Shown here: positions 4,669 through 37,678 of the stretch, in pieces
Numbering within the stretch: position 1 is the first letter of the stretch
Layout: every line of letters begins with the position of its first letter
Virus record (IMG/VR): IMGVR_UViG_3300035670_000638
Location: 1-37,678 of that record
DNA length: 37,678 nucleotides
DNA from: a virus
Strand: one strand, 5' to 3'
Position numbers and translations under genes: made by a program
The notes under the pieces: model-generated
The model's input: the letters and a program-made list of their open reading frames with translations, nothing else
What the model was told of the DNA's origin: nothing
The model's database searches: none

Positions 4669-4754
4669 ATACTGTGTCAAGCACAAAGTGATCAGGACAC
4701 CATCAACTCAGGCATGCCTTGGACGCATGGAACGTTCTACTACCACAAGGTGCG

Positions 4755-4769
4755 GAACAAAACGTGAAC
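4755..4769 (+). promoter_or_regulatory. LexA-type box GAAC-AAAACGT-GAAC
   Basis: This is an exact match to the reverse complement of GTTC-N7-GTTC, the SOS box of alphaproteobacterial LexA. The spacer AAAACGT recurs in other copies. Confidence 0.6.
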
Positions 4770-4829
4770 ACTTGATTGGTACAGTATTCGCATCTTGCAA
4801 TGATCGTGCCAGTCCTGATGTGACATCCT

Positions 4830-4850
4830 TGAGAATGATAATCATTCTCA
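4830..4850. promoter_or_regulatory. Fur-box-like 21-bp perfect palindrome
   Basis: The sequence GAGAATGATAATCATTCTC (4831-4849), extended one base each side, is a perfect palindrome about base 4840. It differs from the 19-bp consensus Fur box GATAATGATAATCATTATC at only two symmetric positions. No gene start follows closely on either strand. Confidence 0.55.
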
Positions 4851-4896
4851 TTGGTATGGTTCGTGTTCTTGCAAGAAGTATGCCATCTCAGGTATG

Positions 4897-4922
4897 GAAC
4901 AAAACGTGAACAAACCATGAAC
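4897..4922 (+). promoter_or_regulatory. Triple GAAC array (two overlapping LexA-type boxes)
   Basis: GAAC occurs at 4897, 4908 and 4919, each separated by 7 bases (AAAACGT, then AAACCAT). This gives two overlapping GAAC-N7-GAAC sites with an exact 11-bp period. Confidence 0.6.
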
Positions 4923-4943
4923 CATATGCTGAGCGCAACAGTG

Positions 4944-4958
4944 GAACAAAACATGAAC
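4944..4958 (+). promoter_or_regulatory. LexA-type box GAAC-AAAACAT-GAAC
   Basis: Another exact GAAC-N7-GAAC, preceded by G as in the other copies (GGAAC). Confidence 0.55.
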
Positions 4959-4969
4959 ACGTGGCAACA

Positions 4970-4984
4970 GAACAAAACGTGAAC
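4970..4984 (+). promoter_or_regulatory. LexA-type box GAAC-AAAACGT-GAAC
   Basis: Its 15 bases are identical to the site at 4755-4769. Confidence 0.6.
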
Positions 4985-5298
4985 AGAATGGGGCAGCCAT
5001 CATAGGGGTATGCCTATGCACATACCATGCCAGCACCATCACACTGACCATGAACAACCATACACTGTAATACGTCTACATATAGACAAGAGTTGTCGCA
5101 TAATATTTAATTATGACTCCAACAGCATTTGCTAATACACTAGGAAAACCAAGGCTTTGCGAGGTTATGAGAACGTTTCGCAACTGTCTAGATATAGCAT
5201 ACCAAATATGGTGGACACGTTAAGCGAGTGATGTGCTTAGTCTACCGTGCCAGTGGTCTGCCACAATCCTGATAGGAATGTTAGCACATCGATAGGTT

Positions 5299-5313
5299 GT
5301 TCACGTTTTGTTC
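5299..5313 (-). promoter_or_regulatory. LexA-type box GTTC-ACGTTTT-GTTC, inverted orientation
   Basis: This is the reverse complement of the same 15-mer found at 4755 and 4970. From here rightward the boxes face the opposite way, so two inverted arrays flank about 310 bp. Confidence 0.6.
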
Positions 5314-5337
5314 CATAGCCAAGCTCAATCATGGTTT

Positions 5338-5352
5338 GTTCACGGTTTGTAC
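5338..5352 (-). promoter_or_regulatory. Degenerate LexA-type box
   Basis: GTTC-ACGGTTT-GTAC differs from the exact pattern at one base of the second half-site. Confidence 0.4.
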
Positions 5353-5438
5353 CATGGCTATGCGTGATATGCATGGCAGCCCTGCGTCTATGACATGGCT
5401 GCAATTGCGACGCATTCTTAATGGTCGATTGTGCTTGA

Positions 5439-5473
5439 CTGTGGCATTTGTGCCACAGGGGTACAGACCCCCT
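5439..5473. repeat. Two adjoining inverted repeats
   Basis: CTGTGGCA-TTTG-TGCCACAG (5439-5458) is followed without a gap by AGGGG...CCCCT (5457-5461 with 5469-5473). They could be an operator dyad or part of an RNA. GTACAG (5461) can also pair with CTGTAC about 40 bases downstream. Confidence 0.5.
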
Positions 5474-5658
5474 ATTGACAAACAGCGTCGGGGCTATCCC
5501 ATCTGTACAAAAACAGGATTTCAAAATCCGACCACCAAGACCATCCTATGACCATCCCCGCGCATCTATGTGTGCAACGTCCTCTGCATGATCTCGCATC
5601 GTTCTCTTAAATTCTCTGCAAGACCCCACAAATCTGCATAGCTCCTATGCACAAATTT

Positions 5659-5673
5659 GTTCTTGTTTTGTTC
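5659..5673 (-). promoter_or_regulatory. LexA-type box just upstream of the RNA promoter
   Basis: GTTC-TTGTTTT-GTTC ends 9 bases before the late octamer at 5683-5690. The position suggests that the candidate RNA could be modulated by the factor binding these boxes. Confidence 0.5.
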
Positions 5674-5682
5674 CAATTCGTG

Positions 5683-5690
5683 CTTAAATA
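5683..5690 (+). promoter_or_regulatory. Late promoter CTTAAATA for the 5.7-6.1 kb RNA
   Basis: TGCTTAAATAGATG faces right into a region without genes. Predicted +1 is 5696. Confidence 0.55.
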
Positions 5691-5695
5691 GATGT

Positions 5696-6107
5696 TCATA
5701 GTTGGAACCGAAATGGTCGCAAGACCCTCGTCATCTGGGCAAGGTGATACTGTAGAAGACACCAACATGTCCTCTAACCCGAACTGGTTATAATCCAGTG
5801 ACACATCATGAGCTATTTGCGTGGCAAGTGATGTTAACCGTAGGTAATCCCAACCAAGACCCTGATTACAGGTGTGATGGTGATGGGATTGGAAGACTTG
5901 GGATGGATGTATAGACTTACCGGCATCTGCCAAATACCCAAGACGCAAGATGGTTCAACTCACCGAAAGAACAAGTTGATCATAGTTTTCTTATCTTCGG
6001 ATAGGGAAACTATGGTTAATCTACCGAATGAACGAAGTTCATGAGGTTCAGTTTAAGATACTAAGAAAATTCTCAAAAAGAAAACCCCGTAGAAATACGG
6101 GGTCTTA
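5696..6107 (+). ncRNA. Candidate large ornate RNA, about 400 nt
   Basis: Pairing by eye gives a closing stem GAACC/GGTTC (5705-5709 with 6045-6049) around a chain of hairpins: GGTC-GCAA-GACC (5715-5726); ACTGG/CCAGT (5783-5799); ACATCA/TGATGT (5803-5834) with an inner stem; a nested three-part stem 5846-5890 capped CCTG-ATTA-CAGG; CTTGGG/CCCAAG (5897-5942); TCAACT/AGTTGA (5955-5979); a 15-bp stem with a UUCG loop (5981-6014); ATGAAC-GAA-GTTCAT (6028-6042). The GNRA and C(UUCG)G loops and three G-U pairs in the 15-bp stem work only on the plus strand. A hairpin with a GAAA loop at 6084-6103 could end it. No family was recognised. Confidence 0.55.
6084..6103. terminator. Terminator of the minus operon, possibly of the plus RNA too
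   Basis: ACCCCGTA-GAAA-TACGGGGT is an 8-bp stem. On the minus strand TTTTCTTTTT follows, a good intrinsic terminator for the gene ending at 6115. On the plus strand it has a GNRA loop and the weaker tail TCTTAAT. Confidence 0.85.
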
Positions 6108-6114
6108 ATCGAAA

Positions 6115-13562: not shown

Positions 13563-13581
13563 GCCAGTCAATCGGTAATCC

Positions 13582-13589
13582 GATAAATA
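13582..13589 (+). promoter_or_regulatory. Late promoter GATAAATA embedded at the capsid terminator
   Basis: The motif abuts the left arm of the terminator at 13591-13614. Predicted +1 (13595) falls inside that arm, so new transcripts would start with GGTGGA-GAAA-TCCACC. Confidence 0.65.
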
Positions 13590-13590
13590 G

Positions 13591-13614
13591 GGGAGGTGGA
13601 GAAATCCACCTCCC
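13591..13614 (+). terminator. Intrinsic terminator of the capsid gene
   Basis: GGGAGGTGGA-GAAA-TCCACCTCCC has a perfect 10-bp stem and GNRA loop, followed by TTTATTTGTTT. Confidence 0.9.
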
Positions 13615-13636
13615 TTTATTTGTTTGGGAGATACAA

Positions 13637-16762: not shown

Positions 16763-16772
16763 GTCGGGATGC

Positions 16773-16780
16773 ACTAAATA
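16773..16780 (+). promoter_or_regulatory. Late promoter ACTAAATA embedded at the tail-tube terminator
   Basis: The motif is one base from the terminator stem. Predicted +1 (16786) lies inside the stem, so a new RNA would begin GATAC-CGCA-GTATC. Confidence 0.55.
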
Positions 16781-16781
16781 A

Positions 16782-16803
16782 GGGGGATACCGCAGTATCC
16801 CCC
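16782..16803 (+). terminator. Intrinsic terminator of the tail-tube gene
   Basis: GGGGGATAC-CGCA-GTATCCCCC is a perfect 9-bp stem followed by TTTTGCTTTT. Confidence 0.92.
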
Positions 16804-16899
16804 TTTTGCTTTTCAGGTCCATGAAAAGCCTGACAACATTCTCTGACAAACCAAGATTTGTCACGTTGTCCTCAAATTCCCCATAGACATAACTACCCT

Positions 16900-16907
16900 G
16901 ATAAATA
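16900..16907 (+). promoter_or_regulatory. Late promoter GATAAATA of the tail chaperone/tape measure operon
   Basis: Predicted +1 is 16913. The repeat GTCATGGG/CCCATGAC (16909-16931) straddles it, leaving TGGG...CCCA at the RNA 5' end. Confidence 0.65.
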
Positions 16908-16950
16908 GGTCATGGGTGAATTTCCCATGACGACATTAAGGAGAAGTAAG

Positions 16951-27900: not shown

Positions 27901-28281
27901 ATGGCAGTAGCGACGTATAACATCACTCTTAATCAAGGTTCGACGTTCAGTCAGTCGTTCACGTTTAAAAACGCGAGCGGCACTGCCATCGACTTGACTG
28001 GATATTCAGCAAGAGCGCAAGTGCGTCGTTCTGCCAAAGCATCAGATGTCATGATTGATTTCAGCACAGAGAATGCCGTTTCGGCAGATGGTGTTGGTAT
28101 TATTCTAATCGATGTATTGAACGGCATCGTGACACTACAGATGCAAGCACAACATTCTGCTCTGCTTCCGTCTTTCGTCGGTGTCTATGATCTTGAGCTT
28201 GTTCATACCGTAGACAGTGAAATAATTGTCGAACGTATGGTTGCTGGCTCGTTCACCGTTGATGTCGAGGTGACAAGATGA
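27901..28281 (+). CDS. Fibre-associated baseplate/tip protein (126 aa)
   Basis: The product reads YNITLNQGSTFSQSFTFKNA then IDLTGYSARAQVRRS and a hydrophobic beta-rich end. This N-terminal pattern (long first strand, G.T, DLTGY.ar.q.R) is common in small proteins next to phage fibres, some of which attach upper baseplate or fibre subunits. ATG at 27901 is preferred over the in-frame GTG at 27880 because GAGGTG is upstream. It overlaps the next gene by 4 bases. Confidence 0.7.
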   Translation: MAVATYNITLNQGSTFSQSFTFKNASGTAIDLTGYSARAQVRRSAKASDVMIDFSTENAVSADGVGIILIDVLNGIVTLQMQAQHSALLPSFVGVYDLELVHTVDSEIIVERMVAGSFTVDVEVTR

Positions 28282-28535
28282 GCGAAGTAACGATTGTTGT
28301 CGAAGAGAAAACATCCACCATTGTCGAAGTACACTCTGGAAATATTGGTCCGAAAGGTGATCAAGGTATTCAGGGTATCCAAGGTCCGATGGGGGTGACC
28401 GTCATTAGCCTTGCCGACGACGTTGATGTTGCAGCCCGAACAAATGGTTCAATCCTATCGTGGGATAACACAACCAGTAAGTGGGTTGCCAAGAATGAAC
28501 TAAATAGTATCAAGACGGACGGAGGAAACTTCTAA
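28278..28535 (+). CDS. Short collagen-like fibre linker (85 aa)
   Basis: The product has VVEEKTSTIVEVHSGNIG and then collagen triplets GPKGDQGIQGIQGPMG, followed by a strand-rich SLADDVDVAARTNGSIL segment typical of trimeric fibre shafts. It likely trimerises and connects tail tip to fibre. It overlaps the upstream gene by 4 bases (ATGA), and the last base of its stop is the first of the next ATG (TAATG). Its 3' end contains the late motif at 28499-28506. Confidence 0.75.
   Translation: MSEVTIVVEEKTSTIVEVHSGNIGPKGDQGIQGIQGPMGVTVISLADDVDVAARTNGSILSWDNTTSKWVAKNELNSIKTDGGNF
28499..28506 (+). promoter_or_regulatory. Late promoter ACTAAATA before fibre gene
   Basis: GAACTAAATAGTATC lies 29 bases before the ATG at 28535, inside the end of the collagen-like gene. 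Confidence 0.5.
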
Positions 28536-31208: not shown

Positions 31209-31532
31209 ATGACAATGACTAATAAGAATTTCAGTGGCACCGCAGGAACCACGATGACTGCGGTTTATACATGCCCTGCATCAACTACTGCGGTGATTAA
31301 CTTGCTACAGGCAACCAATATCATTTCTGGACAGGTAACCGTTAATGTCGCTATCTTTGACACATCGGCTACCACCGAAACCAAATTTGTGGCAAATTCA
31401 CCAATGAACGTTGGGTCATCAATATCGTTGCTTGGTGGTGGGCTTGTTCTCGAAGCTGGGGACGAATTGCGCATCCAATCGTCCGCAAATTCATCGGTTG
31501 GATTTGTCGGTAGTGTCACGGAGATTGTCTAA
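31209..31532 (+). CDS. Small beta-rich virion protein (107 aa)
   Basis: The product (NFSGTAGTTMTAVYTCPAST) alternates hydrophobic and polar residues and ends SSANSSVGFVGSVTEIV. Similar small beta-sandwich proteins occur next to phage fibres and may trimerise as fibre knobs. GGAGG at 31195 supports the ATG at 31209. Its stop overlaps the ATG of the RCC1 gene. Function inferred from context only. Confidence 0.65.
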   Translation: MTMTNKNFSGTAGTTMTAVYTCPASTTAVINLLQATNIISGQVTVNVAIFDTSATTETKFVANSPMNVGSSISLLGGGLVLEAGDELRIQSSANSSVGFVGSVTEIV

Positions 31533-33805
31533 TGGCTTTTTCACGTCTCATGGGGGTAGGAAACACACCCCTGCAATCTTCTTACAATTTGGCTCTTTCC
31601 GGTTCTGGTGTCACGGTTACTGGTGTCAGAAACATCGACGCTATTCAAGGGCCATTAATTTATCAAGCTGGCTCCGTATTGGGTGTTGGTGGTAATACAA
31701 ACGGTGATACTGGGTGCCGTGTTAATACCACCCCGTTGAAAGAGTTTGCGTCATCAAGCCATTTTGCGTTCGACATTGTAGACATCAAAGGCACTGGGTC
31801 TACTTGGTATTATATGGATGCGAATGGTAGCGTTTGGTCGTCGGGTGGAAGCGGCAACGGGCAAATTGGTACAGGAGTATTTGCAACTCAATATGTTCCA
31901 CAGTATTCGTTTCCCAAAGCCCAAACTGTTGCGGGTGGGCTTCAACATGCTGTTCTCATCGACGGTGATGGGTACCTTTGGGCATGTGGATACAACTACC
32001 GTGGTCGTACCGGTCTTGGTTTTGATGCGTCAACCAGCACTGGTACGTGGACTAAATGCGACACCACCAACAGCGGGACGACAAAATTTGTCAAAGTATC
32101 CTGTGGTTCTTTTATGACCATTGCCATTGATCAGGCTGGCATAGCATGGGGGTTTGGTGAAGGCACTAATGGCACTTTCGGTCAAAATGATCAGACACAT
32201 CGTCTTCTTCCAACACAACTTGGCACCAAGTCTTGGAATCAAATCAGTTGTGGTTATGCTCATACCCTCGGTGTGGATACTGATAACAAACTATGGGCAT
32301 GGGGATACAACAATGCGTATCAATGTGGTACAGGAAACACCACAAACGTATTGGCATGGACAGAAATCAGCCTTGGTGTAACGGTTCAGGCTGTTGATGC
32401 GGGAAGTTCCTCATCCACGAGTCATAGTGTCGCATTGGATGTGAACGGTGAAATTTGGGTGGCTGGTGGTAATCAGTACGGAAAAACCGGACAGAATACC
32501 CAAACTGGTCAAACCACCAACTGGACGAAACTGAACACGGGGTCAACTCGTTTCACCAAAATCCGTGCAGGGGCAAATGAAACTTATGCTCTCGACACTA
32601 CTGGTAAGTTGTGGGTCTGTGGGTACAATGGTGCATACCAGTTGGATATGCAAAACACCACAAACGTGGTCGTTTTGACGCAAAGTAATAACCCGTATAC
32701 GTTCACTGATTTGTCCAGCCCGAACGGAAGTGGAATTATTGCAGGTTTGCGTTCTGGACGCGGCTGGTGGTCTGTTGGGTCTTTCAACGGGGCAGATGGA
32801 CGCGGCTCCGCTGGTGCGCATTACCGTTATTTCAGTCCAATCACTCACATCAAAGCAGATCAGGGGCATAACAGTCCACAGTCAACAGCTTTTATGCTAC
32901 TTGACGATGAGGGTGGTGTGCTTGGTTGGGGTAACAATTCCCAATTCCAATTAGGGCATCCTGATACTTCCGGTGGGTATCTTCCAAAAACCACCACTTA
33001 CACCAAATACAAATGGTCAACGACCGGTCAGCAGCATGCATTCCTCATCGATATGAACGATAAATTGTTTACCGCTGGCAGCAATACATCTGGAAAAACC
33101 GGTCTTAATTTGACATCTGGTACAACATCAACATGGACACAAATCGGAACTGATAGCTGGAAAATGGTTTCGGCATCGAGCCAGCAGCATTCTGCTGCTA
33201 TTCGTGCCGATGACACCCTATGGGCATGGGGACTGAATTCATCGTATCAGTTGGGTGATGGTACAAACGTCCAGAAAAACGTCCCAACTCAAATCGGGAC
33301 GGATACTTGGCTGCAAGTTGTTGCTGGATCAAACAATACTATCGGTATTCGTCTTACAGATGGTGCGTTGCTTGCCTGGGGTGCGAATAGCAGCTACGTG
33401 ACTGGTAAAAATACCGCAAGTGGTAGTACAACTTCTCCATCGGTGATTGCCTCCGGTACTGCGTTTGTGAAATGCAGTATCAGTATGACCCATGGTCTTG
33501 CTATTGACACCAGTGGAAACCTTTGGGCATGGGGGCAAAATACCAACGGTGAATGTGGTACTGGTACCACAGCAATTGTTGGTGTTCCAACACTTATCGA
33601 TAGTGTATTGAACTGGAAAAACGTATCCGCAGGTTCGAATTACTCAGTGGCAATCACCGAGGATGATGAAGTGTACGTCGCGGGTAATGGTGCCAACTAC
33701 TCGTTTGGTGTTCCGATTGCTGTAATAAATTTCACCAAGTTGACTGGAAACAAAATGTCTATCCTTAGCACTCATGGTACGACCATGTTGCTAAAATCTA
33801 TATGA
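31532..33805 (+). CDS. RCC1-repeat beta-propeller tail protein (757 aa)
   Basis: Fourteen repeats of the form (L/V)-W-A-W-G-x-N-x-x-x-x-x-G-x-G can be counted, for example LWACGYNYRGRTGLG, LWAWGYNNAYQCGTG, LWAWGLNSSYQLGDG and LWAWGQNTNGECGTG, starting with a weak one at VLGVGGNTNGDTGC and ending VYVAGNGANYSFG. Spacing is roughly 45-55 residues. Fourteen repeats would make two seven-bladed propellers. RCC1 repeats are protein-interaction folds. Being last in the fibre operon, it is likely the distal receptor-binding head or spike. Confidence 0.85.
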   Translation: MAFSRLMGVGNTPLQSSYNLALSGSGVTVTGVRNIDAIQGPLIYQAGSVLGVGGNTNGDTGCRVNTTPLKEFASSSHFAFDIVDIKGTGSTWYYMDANGSVWSSGGSGNGQIGTGVFATQYVPQYSFPKAQTVAGGLQHAVLIDGDGYLWACGYNYRGRTGLGFDASTSTGTWTKCDTTNSGTTKFVKVSCGSFMTIAIDQAGIAWGFGEGTNGTFGQNDQTHRLLPTQLGTKSWNQISCGYAHTLGVDTDNKLWAWGYNNAYQCGTGNTTNVLAWTEISLGVTVQAVDAGSSSSTSHSVALDVNGEIWVAGGNQYGKTGQNTQTGQTTNWTKLNTGSTRFTKIRAGANETYALDTTGKLWVCGYNGAYQLDMQNTTNVVVLTQSNNPYTFTDLSSPNGSGIIAGLRSGRGWWSVGSFNGADGRGSAGAHYRYFSPITHIKADQGHNSPQSTAFMLLDDEGGVLGWGNNSQFQLGHPDTSGGYLPKTTTYTKYKWSTTGQQHAFLIDMNDKLFTAGSNTSGKTGLNLTSGTTSTWTQIGTDSWKMVSASSQQHSAAIRADDTLWAWGLNSSYQLGDGTNVQKNVPTQIGTDTWLQVVAGSNNTIGIRLTDGALLAWGANSSYVTGKNTASGSTTSPSVIASGTAFVKCSISMTHGLAIDTSGNLWAWGQNTNGECGTGTTAIVGVPTLIDSVLNWKNVSAGSNYSVAITEDDEVYVAGNGANYSFGVPIAVINFTKLTGNKMSILSTHGTTMLLKSI

Positions 33806-33812
33806 GGTCAAA

Positions 33813-34025
33813 ATGAGCAATAAAACTCAACAAGCATGTAAGTTCCTTTCTGAAATGGAAATGAACAGTGCTATCGATTGGTTGGTTATCAATGACCAAA
33901 CCGCAATTCCAGAAATTGGTGGGAAAGATGATACTGGCAAATTCATCTTGTTCATTACCTTCGATGATGTAAGTAATGCAGTTGTTTTCTTCGATGAGTG
34001 TGTTGATTTGATAACCGATTGGTAA
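33813..34025 (+). CDS. Unknown small acidic protein (70 aa)
   Basis: The product has a helical start (SNKTQQACKFLSEMEMNSAI) and a short beta/aromatic end (FILFITFDDVSNAVVFFDEC). It starts 7 bases after the RCC1 gene stop, behind GAGG, and is the last of the fibre operon. It could be a fibre chaperone or unrelated. No family recognised. Confidence 0.6.
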   Translation: MSNKTQQACKFLSEMEMNSAIDWLVINDQTAIPEIGGKDDTGKFILFITFDDVSNAVVFFDECVDLITDW

Positions 34026-34081
34026 AAATCAACCAATACACAATACATAGTTCTATATCGTCCACTGGTTGTGGCTTCTTG

Positions 34082-34089
34082 AGTAAATA
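34082..34089 (+). promoter_or_regulatory. Late promoter AGTAAATA of the coiled-coil membrane gene
   Basis: GAGTAAATAGTAGAC lies 38 bases before the ATG at 34127. Confidence 0.55.
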
Positions 34090-34126
34090 GTAGACACACC
34101 TCAACTACAAAATCAGGTGAAGAACT

Positions 34127-34543
34127 ATGTCGGATGTAAAAGATATGGATGGAGAAAACGCGCAGGATAGACGTTCGCATGATCGTCAGCTTTCGGAACT
34201 ACATGACGATGTGTTGGAACTTACTGCCAAACATCACGAGTTGAAAGCTTGGATCGATGCCAAGCTGAACAACGGCATACGTTCTGATATTCAATCACTT
34301 CGAGCCGCAATCAGTGATCTCAAGGATGTGGTGGCTGAGAATGTTACTGCGGTGAGTACAGTAACCACAAAAGTCGATGGTCATATTGCCAGCGAAAGTG
34401 ATGTGGTTGGTGATCTCAAGACCGTGATCACCACCCTCACCGGTATCAAGAAGTTCGTCCTCGTGGTCGGATCGATTGCCACCGCTGCCGTGGCATGCTA
34501 CGGTGCATGGATACAAATCATCGCACCGATGATCGCTGGTTAA
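34127..34543 (+). CDS. Coiled-coil protein with C-terminal membrane anchor (138 aa)
   Basis: Residues 1-110 are charged and helical (QLSELHDDVLELTAKHHELK) with repeated hydrophobic heptads, and residues about 112-134 form one membrane segment (FVLVVGSIATAAVACYGAW). This layout fits phage lysis accessory proteins (holin-like or spanin-like) and also some superinfection factors. It has its own late promoter and terminator at the end of the structural region. AGGTGA supports the start. Lysis role is an inference. Confidence 0.7.
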   Translation: MSDVKDMDGENAQDRRSHDRQLSELHDDVLELTAKHHELKAWIDAKLNNGIRSDIQSLRAAISDLKDVVAENVTAVSTVTTKVDGHIASESDVVGDLKTVITTLTGIKKFVLVVGSIATAAVACYGAWIQIIAPMIAG

Positions 34544-34547
34544 AAAG

Positions 34548-34570
34548 AAGGGGAGCTAGTAGCTCCCCTT
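34548..34570. terminator. Bidirectional intrinsic terminator
   Basis: AAGGGGAGCT-AGT-AGCTCCCCTT is a perfect 10-bp stem. Plus-strand tail AAAGTTTT and minus-strand tail CTTTTT make it work for the convergent genes ending at 34543 and 34569. Confidence 0.9.
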
Positions 34571-34946
34571 AAAGTTTTGGATCGATGTCCATTGGGTGCG
34601 GGATGATCGATCCCGCTTGGTGCATCTTGATAACTCGACGCTTGTGGTTCCATGCCGAGAATTCTGACCCGTTCAACAGACGCAAATTCTCCCGACGCAG
34701 ATCAAGCCGATCATCGTTGACACGAACGACCCGACGCGACCGTGGGAAGTTCAGGATGTTCGCTGCCATCGTGATCGATGCGGGATAGTGCTTCGGCTCC
34801 CAAGCCAGACGCTTTCTCCACACCATATCAGTGTGCGGGTTGTACCACCACTTGAACTGTGAAAGGTACTCGTAGTCAACCTCGGACACCTTGGCTTCGA
34901 GCCACTTGTCCTTGAACTTGACGGGGATGATCTTGTAGTTGCTCAT
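34569..34946 (-). CDS. Degenerate HNH-type endonuclease-like protein (125 aa)
   Basis: The product resembles small phage HNH proteins: an N-terminal substrate-binding part (KWLEAKVSEVDYEYLSQFKW), a conserved MAANIL helix and RVNDDRLDLRRENLRLL, which aligns by eye with the H.N.D.lDNR..NLR core. The usual first histidine and the DNR triplet are altered here (VRVNDDRLDLRREN). It may be an inactive or diverged nuclease, possibly a DNA-binding relic. It is ATGA-coupled to the upstream HTH gene. Confidence 0.65.
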   Translation of the reverse strand: MSNYKIIPVKFKDKWLEAKVSEVDYEYLSQFKWWYNPHTDMVWRKRLAWEPKHYPASITMAANILNFPRSRRVVRVNDDRLDLRRENLRLLNGSEFSAWNHKRRVIKMHQAGSIIPHPMDIDPKL

Positions 34947-35299
34947 AGTCCTGCTTCCTCCTTCAGCATACCGATCTCACCAGCCAGCCATACCCGAATT
35001 TCCTTCGACGGAGCGCGGTTTTTCAGGGCTTCCAGCACCCGAACAGCGATCTCAGCATTGTCGGTAGCCAGATCGGTCATACCCCGCTCAAAAGCTTCCA
35101 AATCGGCTTGAATGGCAGCGACCTGATCGGCTACTTCCTCACGGATGTCCTTGTAGTAATCACCACGGATCGTGCGGATGATATGGACGTGAGAGCATCC
35201 GTACAAGTTGGCCAGTTCTCGGGTGGTCATGCGCTGCTTGTTCTCACGTATTGCCTTGACCATTGCTGGTGTGAACATTCTGTTGTGTCTTGTGTACAT
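34943..35299 (-). CDS. Helix-turn-helix protein (118 aa)
   Basis: Residues about 12-45 (VKAIRENKQRMTTRELANLY, then GCSHVHIIRTIRGDYYKDI) form an HTH like those found in phage HNH/homing nucleases and small regulators. The rest is an acidic helical domain. AGGTGA precedes the ATG at 35299, and a late promoter is at 35330-35337. Its pairing with the HNH-like gene suggests a split DNA-binding/nuclease pair. It could instead be a late regulator. Confidence 0.65.
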   Translation of the reverse strand: MYTRHNRMFTPAMVKAIRENKQRMTTRELANLYGCSHVHIIRTIRGDYYKDIREEVADQVAAIQADLEAFERGMTDLATDNAEIAVRVLEALKNRAPSKEIRVWLAGEIGMLKEEAGL

Positions 35300-35329
35300 A
35301 TTTTCACCTCGTGTTATCGTCGTCTGCTG

Positions 35330-35337
35330 TATTTATC
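35330..35337 (-). promoter_or_regulatory. Late promoter GATAAATA of the HTH/HNH operon
   Basis: The minus strand reads TAGGATAAATACAGC. Predicted +1 is 35324, 25 bases before the ATG. Confidence 0.6.
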
Positions 35338-35375
35338 CTAAACAACCATGTCCAATTATCCAATTTATTCCATAA

Positions 35376-35459
35376 GAAAACCCCACCTCCCGACGAGAAG
35401 AGGTGGGGTCAATGACGAAGTTGGGATGATGAAGTTGACGACGACACAAGGTACCCAAC
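35376..35459 (-). ncRNA. Candidate small RNA b, about 84 nt
   Basis: Predicted +1 at 35459 is the first base of GTTGGG, which pairs with CCCAAC (35454-35459 with 35420-35425 in plus coordinates). The RNA ends in a 10-bp terminator (35380-35409) with TTTT. There is no ATG in it. Promoter, 5' hairpin and terminator form a minimal transcription unit. Confidence 0.5.
35380..35409 (-). terminator. Intrinsic terminator of small RNA b
   Basis: On the minus strand ACCCCACCTC pairs with GAGGTGGGGT across a 10-base loop, followed by TTTCTTATGG. Confidence 0.85.
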
Positions 35460-35464
35460 ACAGG

Positions 35465-35472
35465 TATTTATT
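35465..35472 (-). promoter_or_regulatory. Late promoter AATAAATA of small RNA b
   Basis: The minus strand reads TTAATAAATACCTG, directly after the hairpin ending small RNA a. Confidence 0.55.
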
Positions 35473-35474
35473 AA

Positions 35475-35556
35475 ACGACTAAGGGGAGCGATGTGGCTAT
35501 CGCTCCCCTTTACCATTTTTACCGTGATAGAACAGATGTCTTCACCCATCTGCTTC
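35475..35556 (-). ncRNA. Candidate small RNA a, about 80 nt
   Basis: From predicted +1 at 35556 (GAAGCAGATGG), a stem with the core CAGATG/CATCTG (plus 35533-35538 with 35547-35552) extends by two pairs toward the 5' end. A strong 12-bp hairpin (35481-35510) follows. No coding frame. The minus-side T tract after the hairpin is weak, so read-through into RNA b is possible. Confidence 0.45.
35481..35510. terminator. 12-bp hairpin terminator
   Basis: AAGGGGAGCGAT-GTGGCT-ATCGCTCCCCTT is perfect. Its T tract is better on the plus strand (TTTACCATTTTT) than on the minus strand. Confidence 0.75.
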
Positions 35557-35561
35557 ATTCA

Positions 35562-35569
35562 TATTTATA
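35562..35569 (-). promoter_or_regulatory. Late promoter TATAAATA of small RNA a
   Basis: On the minus strand this is a perfect T4 late octamer (GTGTATAAATATGAATG), one of only two in the set (with the capsid promoter). Confidence 0.65.
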
Positions 35570-35649
35570 CACCATGAGAATTTCAGATGGTATTTCTTTT
35601 ATCCAAATTTTAGGCATAGTCCACCTTCCGCTATTCCCCGTAATCAAGA

Positions 35650-36099
35650 AGAAAGAGAAGTTTGAAGAATAATCTTCAGAACATTCTTTCCACGAGATCA
35701 CTCTTAGCGATCAAGGGAGGTAACTTTAGACCGTATATCTGAGATGCCTTTGGTGTCATTGCCTTGAAAGCAATTCCGTAGAGCCACCTACGTCCCCGTT
35801 GCATTATATGGTTAATGCAAGACCACTACTATCACGGTTTATTTTGTCTCAGTTGTCTCTCAGGTCGCTACCAACCATTCGAGGGGTAGGAATAAGTGCA
35901 AGCACTCGAAGTTCCCCCGGTCACCGATTGTTTTTACTTCATCAATCATTGAAGGTTTTGACGTTTCGCTCTGTGAGCCAAATGCATCACGTCACCAGCA
36001 TTTCGTTTTGTTCCACAGTTCGACCGACCCGAAGCCATTAAGTCTCTGTTTCACTGGTGCCTCATTATGGGACAGTCACCAACCCGACCATTCAGTTCA
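35650..36099 (-). ncRNA. Candidate large structured RNA, about 450 nt
   Basis: On the minus strand from predicted +1 at 36099, hairpins include (plus coordinates): GACGT/ACGTC 35960-35993 enclosing GCTC-TGT-GAGC; CTTCA/TGAAG 35937-35954; a long stem GGGG..CCCC 35883-35917 capped by AGTG-CAAG-CACT; TTGCATT/AATGCAA 35799-35820; CGTAG/CTACG 35777-35792; a 7-bp stem 35758-35774; a 7-bp stem 35696-35712; TGAAGA/TCTTCA 35663-35678. The stems at 35758 and 35696 each contain a G-U pair only in the minus sense. The longest minus frame noticed is about 30 codons. No known family recognised. Confidence 0.45.
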
Positions 36100-36104
36100 A
36101 CAAG

Positions 36105-36112
36105 TATTTAGC
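36105..36112 (-). promoter_or_regulatory. Late promoter GCTAAATA of the 36.1-35.65 kb RNA
   Basis: The minus strand reads CTGGCTAAATACTTG. It directs transcription into gene-free DNA. Confidence 0.5.
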
Positions 36113-36168
36113 CAGAGGTGGTCTGTCAGTGTCACTAAAAAAGTACAAAACAAGAACATTTCGGACGA

Positions 36169-36210
36169 AAAGCATTTGGGTGTGGTAGGAATGTCACACC
36201 CAAATGCTTT
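36169..36210 (-). terminator. Long-stem terminator of the leftward early operon
   Basis: A perfect 16-bp stem (36169-36184 with 36195-36210) with a 10-base loop begins in the stop codon of the gene ending at 36209. A short T run (CTTTTCG) follows on the minus strand. Confidence 0.8.
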
Positions 36211-36523
36211 ACTCACGGGCAAGACGCTGTTTCCGTTTGATGCGTTCACGTCGATCCTTGATTTTCTTATCGATCACTCCGATCAGATTGGCTTGAGCCA
36301 CCGTCACTGGTGATCCCCGTCGCAATCGAGCCACCGCATCGAGTAGTCTGACCTTCCATGGTTCATGCGTCTCTTGGTCAGCCATGCGCTGAACCTTGGC
36401 TGCAAAAGAATTCATGGCTGACCGCTTCCGTGCTTTTCGAGCCATGCGATCAAGTCGTGCATCCAGCCCACTGGTCATGGTGGGTTGATGCTGTTTGGCT
36501 TTGTCCCAGTCCAGTTTCGTCAT
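36209..36523 (-). CDS. Highly basic helical protein (104 aa)
   Basis: The product is rich in Arg and Lys throughout (RLDRMARKARKRSAMNSFAA, KDRRERIKRKQRLARE) and almost entirely helical. It could bind DNA or RNA, e.g. as a small early nucleoid or polymerase effector, but no family is recognised. ATGA overlap with the upstream gene and the 16-bp terminator overlapping its stop show that it is the last gene of the leftward early operon. Confidence 0.7.
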   Translation of the reverse strand: MTKLDWDKAKQHQPTMTSGLDARLDRMARKARKRSAMNSFAAKVQRMADQETHEPWKVRLLDAVARLRRGSPVTVAQANLIGVIDKKIKDRRERIKRKQRLARE

Positions 36524-36975
36524 TTACTCATCACCTTGAGCGTTCGCACGATTGTCGCGAACGGATCAGTCGGTTCTTCCCACGTGGCATAGTGATAGTA
36601 CGACGGTCGGTCGATCAAGTTATCTCCGACCCGTGTTGTACTCATACCCTCGTTGATCAACGTGTCGAAACCACGCATGCGTAACCACGTCATCACTTGC
36701 TTGTGGTTATCGGGCATCATGTGCAGCAGGAAGTCTCGACCACTTTCATCACCGCTGTAGTCGAGGAAGAACGGCTCGGTCTTCGCGATGATACGACGGA
36801 AGATCGACCGCATCGTGCGCAAGCTATGAACCGGTGCCTCTCCGTAAATTCGCACGTTGATCTTGGCACATAGCGGGAAGTCGAGTAGTTCACCCCGCTC
36901 CCGTGCCGCAATGGATGCCTCGATCCAGTCTCGCATGAGACGGTCGAAGCTTCGTCGGTTATGGATAGTCCTCAT
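36520..36975 (-). CDS. Unknown early protein (151 aa)
   Basis: The product (MRTIHNRRSFDRLMRDWIEA at start) is a soluble alpha/beta protein with DFPLCAKINVRIYG, KTEPFFLDYSGDESGRDFLL and a late WLRMRGFDTLINEG segment. The start at 36975 is chosen because the strong sigma70 promoter at 37006-37034 gives +1 near 37000, so the longer frame to 37053 would begin upstream of the transcript. No family is recognised. As one of only four clearly early proteins, it may take part in host takeover or replication initiation. Confidence 0.7.
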   Translation of the reverse strand: MRTIHNRRSFDRLMRDWIEASIAARERGELLDFPLCAKINVRIYGEAPVHSLRTMRSIFRRIIAKTEPFFLDYSGDESGRDFLLHMMPDNHKQVMTWLRMRGFDTLINEGMSTTRVGDNLIDRPSYYHYATWEEPTDPFATIVRTLKVMSK

Positions 36976-37005
36976 CGTCGGTCGTCCTATCACCATTGAT
37001 ACATG

Positions 37006-37034
37006 ACCGTAGCACGACCAGTTCATCATGTCAA
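37006..37034 (-). promoter_or_regulatory. Strong sigma70 early promoter, leftward
   Basis: The minus strand has TTGACA (37034-37029), 17 bases, then TACGGT (37011-37006). It fires the 36975-36209 operon. Confidence 0.8.
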
Positions 37035-37046
37035 GCCCAAAAATCG

Positions 37047-37075
37047 TTGACACTGGACGAAAGCCTTGCTATGGT
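37047..37075 (+). promoter_or_regulatory. Strong sigma70 early promoter, rightward
   Basis: TTGACA (37047-37052), 17 bases, TATGGT (37070-37075). Its -35 is only 12 bp from the -35 of the leftward promoter, giving a compact divergent pair. Confidence 0.85.
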
Positions 37076-37112
37076 TGGCTTTGACGATTGGTCAGAACGA
37101 CATGAGGTGAAC

Positions 37113-37526
37113 ATGACGAACGTAATCGAGTTTCCGGTGAGGCATTGTCCATATGCCTTGCGGGTTAAGCAGATGATGGACGCACACAAGGTGCCGATGC
37201 CGCTGGTGCAGATCGGTTGGGTCGTGGCTCCCCATGGCAAGCCGACCCGCACCGCGATCCACAAACTGACTGCGGATGCAGTTGGTGACGGTTTCAGCCT
37301 GATCATCGACAACGACAGCCTGTTTGTGACTGACAACAAGGGTAAGAGTTTCATGGTTATGTTCAACCGTGAAATGAACGGTGTCGGGTCGAACGCGGGC
37401 AACGAAGATGTCAAAGCCCACGTCGAAGAAATGATCGGCTTGCTCACCAAGTTGAACTGGCAGAACATCGCGACCGACATCACGAACTCCAATCGGGTCA
37501 AGAAGGCACGGGACAAACGGCAATGA
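37113..37526 (+). CDS. Unknown early protein (137 aa)
   Basis: The product begins MTNVIEFPVRHCPYALRVKQ, has a glycine/aspartate beta part (DGFSLIIDNDSLFVTDNKGK) and a helical end (EEMIGLLTKLNWQNIATDI). The ATG at 37113 is preferred to 36996 because transcription should start near 37082; GAGGTGA lies just upstream. It is the first gene of the rightward early operon and is ATGA-coupled to the next. No domain recognised. Confidence 0.75.
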   Translation: MTNVIEFPVRHCPYALRVKQMMDAHKVPMPLVQIGWVVAPHGKPTRTAIHKLTADAVGDGFSLIIDNDSLFVTDNKGKSFMVMFNREMNGVGSNAGNEDVKAHVEEMIGLLTKLNWQNIATDITNSNRVKKARDKRQ

Positions 37527-37678
37527 CACAACTGCCCAAGTTGCTGGCTCTCTGCGCATCCACCAACGATCACGAAGCGTTGTTGGCACTGAGAGCCATA
37601 CAAAAACTGATCGAAAAGGACGGTGGTCGTCTCACTGACCTTCACTACACGAAGGGTCATAGCGGCACCGTTCAGTTC
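37523..37678 (+). CDS. Coiled-coil protein, 5' part of gene split by contig ends
   Basis: ATG at 37523 overlaps the previous TGA (ATGA). The frame MTQLPKLLALCASTNDHEAL runs off the window and continues at base 2. The joined protein is about 105 residues with a C-terminal coiled coil. See the entry at 2-289. Confidence 0.8.
   Translation, partial: MTQLPKLLALCASTNDHEALLALRAIQKLIEKDGGRLTDLHYTKGHSGTVQF
37552..37678. repeat. Terminal direct repeat, right copy (contig overlap)
   Basis: Identical to bases 1-127. Remove one copy to obtain the circular map of 37,551 bp. Confidence 0.9.

Follow-up and report, generated by a model that had tools for sequence, protein, structure and literature searches.

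The virus record analysed here in full, which we call the window, comprises 37,678 bases, and its first and last 127 bases (1-127 and 37552-37678) are identical. The simplest explanation of these ends is that the genome was assembled in full as a circle and is 37,551 bases long. The plus strand carries a head-tail block that encodes the terminase, the portal, the scaffold, the major head protein, the tape measure and a J protein of the lambda type, and an RCC1-like repeat protein (31532-33805, plus strand; PHROG 7220, E 7e-60) is encoded where the tail block ends. The 29 distinct proteins scanned, a subset of the open reading frames, included no member of a polymerase, primase or helicase family; one weak 'DNA polymerase' match (E 0.041) appeared among the tail-fibre matches of 28278-28535. 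For the portal and the terminase, identity stays below 60% in all matched phage records. When contigs were searched with the terminase, five loci were obtained; in an alignment-based search that found 598 related stretches, the best 80 showed at most 48% identity, and the 88 terminase-based loci gave, among the matches listed, matches to head and packaging genes only. Contig scans with two neighbouring proteins, the portal and the J protein returned no relatives, an absence that is not proof because the searched sets may omit very near records. The protein encoded next to the element described below gave one weak match, interrupted by two stops, in the genomes of one class.

The phage encodes a gp55-type late sigma factor (Table 1). 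PHROG 12791, one of the two families that it matches, is annotated as 'sigma factor for late transcription'. The phage protein is closest to gp55-type factors of jumbo phages, at about the 35-45% level (44% to a jumbo-phage late sigma). A search with it gave viral loci, of which the best 80 of 364 were taken, and three genome loci. We presume that this sigma factor is the reader of the late motifs. The heptamer ATAAATA occurs 19 times genome-wide, compared with a mean of 1.9 in shuffled sequence (maximum 5 in 30 shuffles). In the structural block, 12 copies lie on the coding strand and one on the opposite strand, compared with averages of 1.9 and 0.3, respectively, for permuted heptamers, so that the strand bias of ATAAATA alone is uninformative and its count is the informative measure. 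Based on the sigma gene and this enrichment, late promoters are credible in the phage genome.

According to a review of T4 late transcription (PMC2988020), the T4 late promoter has a TATA box of 8 bp that lies roughly one turn of the helix upstream of the start, and phage Aeh1 uses a variant with a/gC at -13/-12. The present phage resembles T4 in possessing a gp55-type sigma gene and TATAAATA-like boxes before late genes, and it differs in that it is a 37.5-kb phage with lambda-like tail genes whose late promoters are predicted from sequence. A gp55-type late sigma factor and T4-like late motifs beside lambda-like tail genes form an unusual combination in a genome of this size, and it may interest specialists more than the candidate RNA itself. 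In the literature, surveyed by titles and the beginnings of abstracts, neither the present RNA nor a small siphophage with a gp55-type system was described.

An earlier note on this DNA had proposed that a late motif at 36105-36112 is followed on the minus strand by 450 bases without genes, 35650-36099, which fold as a large structured RNA. The motif is present, with its TAAATA at 36110-36105 on the minus strand. A sigma gene whose product could read it is present, yet the box at 36112-36105 is the C variant of the TATAAATA-type box, and this variant is not enriched by itself (CTAAATA occurs five times genome-wide against a shuffle mean of 2.0). For this reason we regard GCTAAATA at 36112-36105 as a plausible, not an established, late promoter. 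Four TAAATA motifs occur between 35.3 and 36.1 kb, all on the minus strand, as are the neighbouring genes, and the late motif at 35336 precedes the minus-strand gene 35299-34943. The lack of genes was borne out as well: 35300-36168 contains no gene-like open reading frame, codon scores are low (-0.56 and -0.14 for the two largest open frames against a training-gene mean of +0.33), and a PHROGs search with ten open frames of the gene-free stretch gave no family, the best E being 0.065. Small peptides were also considered as the product and were rejected on the missing family match and the poor codon scores.

Table 1. Coordinates of the features discussed in the text (positions in the window).
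Feature	Position	Strand	Details
gp55-type late sigma factor	1517-1888	minus	123 aa; PHROG 12791 E 1.7e-25, PHROG 234 E 1.8e-17
Companion element	5692-6105	plus	414 nt; TTAAATA motif upstream at 5684
Strong terminator, probably ending the unit	35379-35410	minus	terminator scan
ATAAATA late motif before possible small RNA	35465-35471	minus	motif scan
13-bp GC hairpin	35481-35510	minus	terminator scan; terminator-like in the plus direction only
Hairpin-rich structured domain	35515-35840	minus	326 nt; real core of the finding
Closing helix P1, 3' arm	35521-35530	minus	CTATCACGGT; beyond the 3' limit of the earlier note
Perfect late motif of T4 type within the domain	35562-35569	minus	TATAAATA; possible nested promoter
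Hairpin, 6 bp	35663-35678	minus	kept in the minimum-energy fold
Hairpin, 7 bp	35696-35712	minus	one G-U on minus; 5' arm alternatively pairs with 35821-35828 (P2)
Hairpin, 7 bp	35758-35774	minus	one G-U on minus; competes with the long-range fold
Hairpin, 6 bp	35777-35792	minus	one G-U on minus; competes with the long-range fold
Hairpin, 8 bp	35799-35820	minus	kept in the minimum-energy fold
Closing helix P1, 5' arm	35829-35838	minus	10 bp; ACCGTGATAG
5' segment lacking excess structure and coding signal	35841-36099	minus	folding and codon tests
Late-promoter-like motif	36105-36112	minus	GCTAAATA; fits the Aeh1 a/gC variant; start predicted near 36099
Perfect 16-bp inverted repeat	36169-36210		separates gene 36209-36523 (minus) from the unit

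We then compared the folding of the locus with that of shuffled sequence. At least eight hairpins had been claimed for 35650-36099; a fixed rule finds 12 on the minus strand, compared with 7.5 ± 1.8 in shuffles (2 of 100 reach 12), and the summed stem score of this strand (156.5 against 89.5 ± 21.2) is reached by none of 300 shuffles. The energy of the whole interval is a different matter, since on the minus strand it is no stronger than that of shuffled sequence (z -0.37, equalled by 35 of 100 shuffles); the plus strand gives z -2.29, with 2 of 100 shuffles as good. Thus the local hairpins are real, whereas a well-folded 450-nt RNA as delimited fails. The proposed 3' limit cuts off the 3' half of the only domain that is significantly folded, and about 260 nt without excess structure are included, so that what stands of the proposal is a structured, gene-free element behind a late-type motif and not its extent.

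By part, only 35515-35840 folds better than its shuffles on both strands. Its minus strand reaches -99.3 kcal/mol (shuffles -74.2 ± 5.0; z -5.01) and its plus strand -86.2 kcal/mol (shuffles -62.4 ± 4.8; z -4.92), and on either strand none of 600 shuffles is as good. The adjoining part, 35841-36104, does not fold better than shuffles (z +0.13, 100 of 200 as good; hairpin score reached by 30 of 300). The hairpin density of 35515-35840 exceeds that of all 460 genome grid windows on either strand, a rank to be read with the fact that the limits of the domain were set after inspecting the fold; even without shifting, the grid windows 35372-35697 (4.05 on minus) and 35698-36023 (3.99 on plus) rank within the top seven density rows. 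Minimum free energies with z of -5 or below occur in 8 of 230 genome windows, mostly coding (12 shuffles each), and one of the eight, 35209-35534 on the minus strand, overlaps the downstream part of the unit.

The domain is closed by the helix P1, whose pair probability is 0.93-1.00 in three contexts (the domain alone, 36104-35481 and 36104-35379). A perfect 10-bp inverted repeat alone is present in 23 of 200 shuffles and is hence unsurprising. Inside P1, the helix P2 has a pair probability of 0.82-0.93, and the long-range fold and the local hairpins 35792-35777, 35774-35758 and 35712-35696 are partly mutually exclusive. These same three hairpins each carry a G-U pair that forms in the minus sense only (the earlier note had spoken of two such hairpins), but they do not serve as evidence for the strand, because the plus strand has G-U pairs of its own. 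As large a minus-over-plus hairpin difference is seen in 82 of 300 shuffles of the domain and in 165 of 300 of 35650-36099, and this asymmetry is not significant. Since the excess structure is equal on both strands, the fold of 35515-35840 does not choose between them. The corrected boundaries, with 35829-35838 paired to 35521-35530, define the construct to test. A 5'-3' closure of the 726-nt transcript was considered and attributed to chance, as it is equalled by 66 of 160 controls with a shuffled tail and by 97 of 160 with a shuffled 5' part.

The companion element at about 5.7 kb was folded in the same manner. Its plus strand gives z -5.95 and its minus strand z -4.10, each with none of 100 shuffles as good; when it was folded without its terminator and with 24 shuffles, z was -3.25 on both strands, and thus the value of -5.95 depends on the terminator and on the number of shuffles. 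Folding of the whole molecule is better supported for 5692-6105 than for the element near 36 kb. If its 414 nt and the 326-nt domain both count, the earlier estimate that about 2% of the genome is ornate RNA is fair (740/37,551). The terminator that ends 5692-6105 has its longer U tract on the minus strand. A shared 5' motif of the two elements was tried and rejected: about 2% of shuffles equal the two elements in similarity over the first 60 nt, and over the full length the similarity is that of chance (0.59 of shuffles). One viral contig contains this motif, at the end of a reading frame.

It had also been suggested that the element near 36 kb contains the core of a repeated LexA-like box. 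The string GGAACAAAACG is found at 36014-36004 on the minus strand, but its second half-site is missing. The alphaproteobacterial LexA box has the consensus GAAC-N7-GAAC as quoted in PMC3091678, whereas 36014-36004 reads GAAC-N7-AATG, with AATG in place of the second GAAC; the likeness lies in GGAACAAAACG, which is common to this site and to the complete boxes at 4755-5673. The latter region is, judging from its boxes, an SOS-box array. It holds seven of the nine GAAC-N7-GAAC sites of the genome (genome shuffle mean 1.8), and viral contigs carry the 17-base box in at least 119 stretches.

To place the two elements among known sequences, blastn searches were made with 35300-36230 and 4700-6110 against phages and with 35380-36120 against plasmids, and nothing was found. 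Both elements gave only short chance matches against 293 loci, which included the 80 viral sigma loci and excluded the three genome sigma loci, and the element near 36 kb had no match in 385 genomes of one class, in a run without a positive control. In the whole window no Rfam family reached its gathering threshold; at E <= 10, 35300-36230 gave four unrelated weak families only, and no tRNA, tmRNA, GOLLD or ROOL. ARAGORN found no tRNA gene and no tmRNA in the whole genome. A tRNA-like or tmRNA-like identity was rejected on these grounds, with only low-scoring calls appearing at forced thresholds. The adjacent hairpins at 35758-35792 (minus) have the look of a D arm and of an anticodon arm bearing a UCA triplet, and no acceptor or T arm lies beside them.

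GOLLD and ROOL, the large ornate RNAs of phages and prophages, form homo-oligomeric RNA cages. The present element is like them in being large, gene-free, hairpin-rich and phage-borne; it is unlike them in that it has no Rfam match, lies in a genome without tRNA, has no homologue in our searches and shows excess structure in only 326 nt. By the covariance-model test it is not a member of GOLLD or ROOL. PMC12286853 describes GOLLD and ROOL as often encoded near tRNA islands and GOLLD expression as rising during phage lysis, and the latter would be paralleled here by the putative late promoter.

For the unit at 36112-35379 on the minus strand, the observed facts are the late motifs, the presence of a sigma gene, the excess of hairpins and the missing coding signal. 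The element is likely a noncoding RNA, and we suggest, with a probability of roughly one half, that 36112-35379 is a noncoding late transcription unit that makes a stable folded late RNA. The minus strand is favoured because of the promoter motif and the gene order, and not because of the fold. Transcription from the plus strand was the converse reading, and 35650-36099 indeed folds better in that sense and the hairpin at 35481-35510 is terminator-like in it. It is nevertheless decidedly improbable, because no late motif lies on the plus strand between 34.1 and 37.5 kb, the only sigma70-like site, at 37047, is well downstream, and all neighbouring genes from 34569 to 37053 are on the minus strand. 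The likeness of the two strands in hairpin and folding excess is also what palindromes acting in DNA would give, in which case the locus would be a replication origin, a recombination or packaging site or a protein-binding site, and any RNA would be incidental. We consider this rather unlikely: the arms of the closing helix are about 300 nt apart, unlike those of a compact DNA palindrome, the extremes of cumulative GC skew (3599 and 34605) track gene direction and lie away from the site near 36 kb, and the late motifs are all on one strand.

Another reading takes the locus for an insulating spacer, in which terminator-like and stray hairpins separate late units in drifting sequence that has no function as RNA. 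Several terminator-like hairpins do flank the domain (eight in 34000-37678, against a shuffle mean of 3.2), and half of the unit is without excess structure. Against this, U tracts are missing from the hairpins inside the domain, a long-range helix connects these hairpins, their density is the highest of the 460 windows, and 870 bp is large for a spacer in a 37.5-kb genome, so that this reading appears improbable. A decayed gene or a tRNA-like cluster is very unlikely indeed, as the resemblance of 35792-35777 and 35774-35758 to a D arm beside an anticodon arm was seen by eye, without support from any tool, and is opposed by the ARAGORN result, by the lack of an Rfam tRNA at E <= 10 and by the lack of a protein family in the ten open frames.

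For the noncoding late transcription unit, we infer transcription, strand, ends and function as follows. The gp55-type sigma factor of the phage would recognise GCTAAATA at 36112-36105, and the RNA would start near 36099. It would pass about 260 nt without special structure and then the 326-nt hairpin domain closed by the 10-bp helix, and it would stop at the strong terminator 35410-35379 or, in part, at the hairpin 35510-35481, giving a late noncoding RNA with a full length of at most about 725 nt. The late motifs at 35569 and 35471 may yield shorter RNAs with a common 3' end, and the product is probably the RNA itself rather than a peptide. If GOLLD (PMC12286853) and similar phage RNAs are taken as a guide, it is conceivable, at rather long odds, that this late RNA serves to hold or to shield an RNA or a protein while particles are being produced. 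Equally speculative is the broader view that 5692-6105 (plus) and about 36099-35379 (minus) are two unrelated large structured late RNAs of a new family, possibly scaffolds in particle production, both made from late-type motifs that a jumbo-related gp55-type sigma factor would read, and both outside a tRNA-island setting.

Covariation is the usual way of finding large structured phage RNAs whose function is unknown, and it misses orphans. If the unit is transcribed, it would link dedicated noncoding RNAs to a small tailed phage that has a late switch of T4 type, and would offer a compact system for asking what large structured phage RNAs do. The element is of modest interest alone and of higher interest with its genomic context.

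Downstream of the domain, a possible small RNA (35379-35463, minus) lies between a late motif and the strong terminator. Within it, a sequence of about 14 bases is nearly repeated (CAACTTCATCATCC / CAACTTCGTCATTG), and its z is -3.2 with the terminator and -1.1 without it. In the structural block, the intergenic segments 13563-13636 and 16763-16911 also fold strongly on both strands, with z of about -4 to -5.
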